Of a DNA stretch of 64,000 nucleotides, positions 13,673-53,978 are shown piece by piece. Below the pieces are notes generated by a model. It was given only the letters and a program-made list of their open reading frames with translations. It was not told the origin of the DNA and searched no databases. The position numbers and the translations under genes are program-made. Every line of letters begins with the position of its first letter. The first letter of the stretch is position 1. The stretch comes from Treponema primitia ZAS-2 (GTDB lineage: Bacteria > Spirochaetota > Spirochaetia > Treponematales > Breznakiellaceae), in NCBI RefSeq assembly GCF_000214375.1, contig NC_015578.1, forward strand, positions 3,100,001 to 3,164,000. The letters run 5' to 3'.

Positions 13673-13675
13673 CTA

Positions 13676-13797
13676 ATCAACAACCTCGCCCTAAAGGGAC
13701 GAGGTATGTTGTTCTCATAAGGTATTTGTATTCGGGGTTTAATACCCTTTTTAAGCGCCCTAAAGGGCGGGGTATTAAACCCCTCAACACGAATAAA
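13676..13797. repeat. Palindromic dispersed element, copy A
   Basis: The element begins ATCAACAACC and ends near CACGAATAAA. It holds two hairpin regions (the second CGCCCTAAAGGGCG). Copy B at 53230-53318 shares the frame ATCAACAACC, GGTATGTTGTTCT, AGGTATT, TCGGGGT, ACCCCTC and CACGAAT, with different hairpin interiors. This copy lies between the MarR and DUF3781 genes. Confidence 0.75.
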
Positions 13798-53042: not shown

Positions 53043-53978
53043 TTATGCTCCCCGCAGAAACCCCAGCAGCGGCTCCTCCCAGGCGCCCCCGCCCTCCCCC
53101 TCCGCCATGAATCGCCGGTACAGGGCCAGGATATGCTCCCGGATAAGCGCCGCATCCGCCGGGGGCAGGGTGTCCCGGAAAAGCCCGGCAACAAAAACCT
53201 CTGCCTCCTCAGGTGGGAAGAGGAGCGAATCAACAACCCCGCCGCAAGCGGCCGGGGTATGTTGTTCTTTAGAGGTATTGGACTCGGGGTACCTAGGTAC
53301 CCCTCGCCACGAATCAAACCGGGACATGGCGTACATAGCAGCGGCCACGCAGTTCACACTGTGCTGCTTCACAAAAAGTATGGCCTCGGTGATCAGCGCG
53401 GCCCTGGCGTTTACCTCGCCGATCTGTTCTTTCAGGGCTTCTTCGTCCCCAAAGGATCTGAGTATCTGGCGGAACCGGGTGTAGCTTAAAATCATCACCA
53501 TCACATGGAGGCTGGGGATGCACATCAGGTGAGGATCCGTCAGATGGATCAGGAAAAACCGGGGCCGGGCAATGTACCGGGGACGGTGGGTAGTGGACAT
53601 ATTTTTGGAATAGACCTCCGCGGCGAAATAGTAGAGCCGGGTCATGGAATTGAGAAAGTCCTTAACCGGCCCCAGGGCCCGACGGCGGTAGTGCTTCAGG
53701 AGGAAACCCAGGATGCGGATCCAGAAGGCGACAAAGTCCAGGTAAATATCCACCCACCGGGGGATGAAGGGAACCTTGGCGTCCAGGGGATGATCCACCG
53801 AAGTAACCGGGATAAGCCCGGGGGACAAAGCGGCCCGGTACTGGAGAAAGAAAAATTTTGTAAAGATGGTGGCGATACACCGTAAGGCTGGGCCCCGCAG
53901 AACCGGACTGGCCAATATGGTCAGCATCGCGGCTGCCGGGGATTGGCGCCCTGGAGTTCCCTGGTTTTCACTATTCAT
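53043..53978 (-). CDS. Hypothetical membrane protein, possible PAP2-like
   Basis: The 311-residue protein has two or three hydrophobic stretches (WVDIYLDFVAFWIRILGFLL; LMCIPSLHVMVMILSYT). PSLHV and a later KQHSVNCVAAAMYAMSRF recall the PSGH and SRxxxxxHxxxD motifs of PAP2 phosphatases in altered form. Catalysis is uncertain. Residues about 220-250 (FDSWRGVPRYPESN to GVVDS) come from a dispersed palindromic element inserted in frame. ATG at 53978; divergent to the DUF554 gene. Confidence 0.6.
   Translation of the reverse strand: MNSENQGTPGRQSPAAAMLTILASPVLRGPALRCIATIFTKFFFLQYRAALSPGLIPVTSVDHPLDAKVPFIPRWVDIYLDFVAFWIRILGFLLKHYRRRALGPVKDFLNSMTRLYYFAAEVYSKNMSTTHRPRYIARPRFFLIHLTDPHLMCIPSLHVMVMILSYTRFRQILRSFGDEEALKEQIGEVNARAALITEAILFVKQHSVNCVAAAMYAMSRFDSWRGVPRYPESNTSKEQHTPAACGGVVDSLLFPPEEAEVFVAGLFRDTLPPADAALIREHILALYRRFMAEGEGGGAWEEPLLGFLRGA
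53230..53318. repeat. Palindromic dispersed element, copy B, inside a gene
   Basis: This 89-bp copy starts ATCAACAACC and ends CACGAATCAAA. Hairpin arms: AACAACCCCG with CGGGGTATGTTGTT, and CGGGGTACC with GGTACCCCTCG. It shares its frame with copy A (13676-13797) and lies in the 53-kb gene without breaking it. Confidence 0.8.

Follow-up and report, generated by a model that had tools for sequence, protein, structure and literature searches.

A short palindromic element lies in frame inside a conserved protein gene of Treponema primitia ZAS-2, within a window of 64,000 nucleotides (contig NC_015578.1, positions 3,100,001 to 3,164,000; source genome a single contig of 4,059,867 bases). Coordinates given without a locus name are positions in this window. 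We consider this copy (copy A) very probably to be a non-autonomous mobile element of the Treponematales, composed of two hairpins and a linker, which entered the gene as an in-frame insertion of 84 bp.

An in-frame insertion and other copies in genes

The host gene (53043 to 53978, minus strand) specifies a protein of 311 amino acids which is conserved in treponemes, and the element supplies residues 223–250 of its product. In the gene's reading direction, which is that of the minus strand, copy A contributes exactly 84 bp, or 28 codons, in frame and free of stops; the gene reads TTT GAT [TCG TGG ... GTT GAT] TCG, with the insert in brackets. Residues 223–250 were absent from 29/29 aligned homologues, the gap falling between FD and S, and both sides of the insert were conserved with many invariant columns. 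This alignment had been named beforehand, in a preliminary description made from the sequence alone, as the test that could refute an insertion, and the claim withstood it. The same description had placed an 89-bp element at 53230–53318 and had credited it with about 30 stop-free residues in a membrane protein. The element, its open frame and the protein gene (a minus-strand open reading frame of 311 codons) are real, but its extent is 53228–53317, the inserted unit is 84 bp and the added residues number 28. The membrane label is unsupported because the host product has no family match in Pfam or NCBIfam. Probably the extra peptide is neutral and arose as a side effect of the insertion.

Comparison with homologues confirmed in-frame insertion in two further genes. 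In genome G044 the element adds 38 residues to a SpoIIE-domain protein, in the same orientation and frame as copy A, and in G038 it adds 38 residues to PurL, on the opposite strand to the case of copy A; both inserts sit in stretches which vary in length among homologues. Together with the 28 residues missing from homologues of the 311-amino-acid protein, these cases support the earlier suggestion of a coding-tolerant element in treponemes comparable to that of Rickettsia. A tandem pair of copies (117 and 90 bp, each divisible by three) likely lies within a lipoprotein signal peptide of the source genome (L257:1501-1740), where the N-terminus reads MKKTAGQFF[69 residues]IPALAIAWGLIAAC, and a ZnuA-like lipoprotein of G198 likely carries another insertion. 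Two further lipoprotein N-termini (L428 and L174) start with element-encoded residues ending in LLI, which are followed by a hydrophobic stretch.

Most copies are intergenic. Among the 92 copies whose flanks reach 600 bases or more in each direction, 3 are homologue-confirmed internal insertions and 11 are spanned by any frame having 40 open codons on each side. In 33 of 60 sequence clusters the unit length is a multiple of three, and on average the 60 had 1.42 open frames, compared with 0.88 for shuffled sequences (maximum of 200 shuffles, 1.12), a bias which is suggestive only because clusters share descent.

Architecture, distribution and mobility

The family consensus is AATCAACA-hairpin 1-TGTTGTTCTnnTAAGGTATTGGAYTCGGGG-hairpin 2-CCCCTCnnCACGAATVAA; the element contains no gene, and its net length ranges from 84 to 161 bp. 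Copy A (53228 to 53317, plus strand) runs from AATCAAC through hairpin 1, linker and hairpin 2 to CGAATCAA, as delimited by a covariance model (R1), an independent hidden Markov model (HMM) and the junctions, which also set the net insertion (ATCAAC...CGA) at 53229-53312 on the same strand. On this strand, too, hairpin 1 occupies 53231 to 53264, as judged by DNA folding and by a stem which is conserved in the family with some two-sided changes. The conserved linker follows at 53265 to 53285, with many invariant alignment columns and covariation with the terminal base, and hairpin 2, a perfect palindrome (GGGGTACCT/AGGTACCCC), at 53286 to 53303. The copy is flanked by a direct repeat, CGAATCAA, at 53226 to 53233 and 53310 to 53317 (both plus strand); on the minus strand the right repeat reads TTGATTCG, which contains the TTBAT target. 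Copy B (13675 to 13797, plus strand) is intergenic and shows 98-99% identity to other copies in the source genome. Folding places its hairpin 1 at 13678 to 13711 and its hairpin 2, with perfect 14-bp outer arms and a nested GCGCCCTAAAGGGC tip, at 13734 to 13783, both on the plus strand.

R1 recovered copy A with 74.3 bits (E 7.5e-14) and copy B with 144.6 bits (E 8.4e-29). Because both had been part of its training set, an independent HMM was built from 133 copies of other genomes only, and it too detected copy A (E 2.4e-17) and copy B (E 3.5e-34). The two share outer arms and linker and differ in hairpin interiors, which bears out the initial view of one element present in a gene near 53 kb and between genes near 13 kb. 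The genome-wide covariance search which had been proposed at that stage yielded about 34 copies in the source genome, falling into four sequence subfamilies. Both copies folded better than dinucleotide shuffles on either strand (z about -3.6 for copy A and about -7.3 for copy B). Across 23 source-genome copies both hairpins were paired in 87.5% of cells, with few two-sided changes (3 pairs); an outer stem joining the linker to the right end had support in 66% of cells, in an alignment partly out of register for some subfamilies. The 126 copies taken from many genomes comprise 81 distinct sequences of hairpin 1, in which 80% of bases are paired on average. In either hairpin the tip is short (CCCTAAAGGG) in some copies and a longer cassette (AAGCTCCC...GGTTCTTGGG) in others, as if tips had been exchanged; examples are L009 and L011 for hairpin 1, and L008 and L013 for hairpin 2. 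Near the element the curated covariance models of Rfam gave only matches far below gathering scores. A cobalamin riboswitch (RF00174, E 5e-9) is found near one copy, at L023:1074-1265.

Of 98 genomes sampled from the source family, 58 contained matches, and in an order-wide sample of the Treponematales 61 of 194 genomes matched, 29 of them outside that family. When named genomes were scanned with a pattern, the matches listed came almost only from Treponema and Spirochaetaceae assemblies and included no Rickettsia; the few listed under Brevinematales, Defluviitaleaceae, Prevotellaceae and Tannerella may be binning errors. Collections of phages, plasmids and viral contigs gave no match. Searches of the literature on treponeme repeats, which covered few subscription papers, turned up no earlier description of the element.

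The element is mobile and has spread recently, since G032 (complete, one contig, 3,855,671 bases) carries nine copies which are identical over 115 bp and lie in unrelated flanks. They vary only in their outermost bases (right AATAAA in seven and AATCAA in two; left AAT, once GAT), and for this reason those bases are probably derived from the target. The borders of 122 full copies are sharp: on the left the flank is random until AATCAAC begins, and on the right CGAAT-V-AA gives way to near-random sequence. On the minus strand TTBAT(T) precedes the element, whose last bases are GTTGAT, and only AT(T) is common to both ends. Insertion follows TTBAT on one strand; terminal inverted repeats are absent, AATCAAC and CGAATVAA sharing at most AAT, and in this the element departs from classical miniature inverted-repeat transposable elements. 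In the tandem pair of the source genome the junction of the second copy falls at the first copy's AAT. The copies are dispersed singly, which argues against an array of integron attC cassettes (integrases were not searched for).

One base of the linker appears to be tied to the right end. Among 121 parsed copies, 74 have the Watson-Crick complement of V at the facing linker position, as against shuffle means of 46 (free) and 64 (within genomes), and none of 5000 shuffles reached 74 either way; the test controls relatedness only partly, and G032 is mostly unpaired at this position. The cause is either internal base pairing of the right end with the linker or a contribution of the linker to target choice.

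Mobilisation and competing explanations

In the explanation we favour, a trans-acting enzyme would recognise the folded single strand of the element and join it after TTBAT. Copies which keep the frame in a permissive loop or linker would survive in genes, and others would persist between genes. An extension of this scheme, which we regard as doubtful, makes the linker a guide that base-pairs with the target beside the insertion point for an enzyme inserting the folded single strand, with added selection for stop-free, multiple-of-three units tolerated in genes. Several points weigh against a mobile element of this kind. Neither a transposase for it nor an autonomous copy was found, and a search for separated element halves in the loci examined gave only solo, short or overlapping weak halves. 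The filled sites look alike whether AT was duplicated or the target retained, the bias towards open frames and multiples of three is uncorrected for the shared descent of clusters, and the 311-amino-acid host protein could be losing its function.

Miniature elements of the IS200/IS605 group have hairpin ends, lack terminal inverted repeats and insert in one orientation 3' of a short A/T-rich target. The treponeme element shares the hairpin ends, the absence of inverted repeats and the orientation-specific insertion after TTBAT (a TTGAT-like target), and GGTTGTTGAT at its right end is similar to GGTGGTTGTTGAC, found at the end of a genuine Y1 element in L187; moreover, Y1 genes are present in 60 of 98 genomes of the family. 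That it is a miniature derivative of such a Y1 HUH transposase, or a repetitive extragenic palindrome (REP) moved by a REP-associated tyrosine transposase (RAYT), is nevertheless improbable. No Y1 match at E<=10 was obtained in 10 of 14 carriers (most of them complete), including G032 with its nine identical copies; of the remaining four, three gave weak matches and only G093 exceeded the cut-off, with internal stops. The Y1-rich genomes G030, G109 and G137 have zero copies of the element, no full copy occurred in the Y1 loci scanned, and the three Y1 genes of the source genome are not near any listed copy. TnpB (PF07282) was not found in that genome. A RAYT-like Y1 gene at L031 (G000:C1:3456598-3456930) is surrounded by a different recurring palindrome, GGTGCCAGGCACC, often by T runs, and resembles a separate REP-type system. 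Considerably less credible is mobilisation by a DEDD recombinase of the IS110 type, in which the linker would play the part of a bridge RNA's target loop. The AT common to both ends, the lack of inverted repeats and the covariation of linker and target bases would suit it, as would IS110 genes in G000, G032, G090 and G093; however, no IS110 transposase matched in G058, G061, G081, G146, G149 and G179, all complete or near-complete carriers.

Two further alternatives dispense with a tolerated insertion. The host gene may be dying or dead and the open frame of its insert a coincidence, and the restriction of the insert to the source genome's copy of the gene is in keeping with this. We think it unlikely in view of 311 open codons, conservation on both sides, a stop-free insert of 84 bp and the same in-frame outcome in PurL and the SpoIIE-domain protein. 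It is scarcely credible, finally, that the 28 residues represent a long-standing native loop with hairpins formed by chance: the homologue alignment already refutes this, and the same DNA recurs in dozens of unrelated places.

Relation to known palindromic elements

In-frame palindromic insertions had previously been reported from Rickettsia, Wolbachia and one archaeon (PMC2996958). The treponeme copies extend them to a whole spirochaete order and illustrate how a protein may gain a loop in one step, and very recent spread in one complete genome opens a way to test what mobilises elements of this sort.

The element behaves like the Rickettsia palindromic elements (RPE) yet appears to form a separate family, set apart by features and not by sequence comparison. 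RPE and the protein-coding palindromic repeats of Wolbachia are dispersed, measure about 150 bp or less and occur both between genes and in frame within them (PMC10969869, PMC2996958, PMC3733652). The treponeme element is likewise a dispersed palindromic repeat of matching size (84-161 bp; about 34 copies), with in-frame insertions in the 311-amino-acid gene, PurL and the SpoIIE-domain protein which homologues lack. In R. conorii, however, about half of the RPE copies lie within genes (PMC10969869), whereas the treponeme element is mostly intergenic (3/92 confirmed in genes), which limits the comparison. The terminal CGTC tag of R. conorii RPE (PMC3733652) is also missing, since the treponeme end has G, A or T after CGT, and C in none of 122 copies. 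Two hairpins, a conserved linker, a fixed TTBAT junction and occurrence in another phylum further distinguish it from the repeats of both Rickettsia and Wolbachia.

REPs of the GTAG type, which are associated with RAYT, and CGTC-tagged REPs, which have no known transposase and are present in Spirochaetes (PMC3733652), are also short dispersed palindromes. The treponeme element is several times longer, has two hairpins and ends in neither GTAG nor CGTC, and unlike REP/RAYT systems it is accompanied by no detectable RAYT-like gene in most tested carriers and by no full copy in the scanned Y1 loci. With the IS200/IS605 miniature elements it has in common the hairpin ends, the absence of terminal inverted repeats and a fixed target, and it differs from them in that most tested carriers are without Y1 and that a linker in the middle is among its best-conserved parts. 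PARCELs, in which a 25-residue repeat of conserved amphipathic structure recurs in tandem (PMC2996958), are similarly palindromic protein-coding DNA, whereas the treponeme element is a single dispersed insertion.
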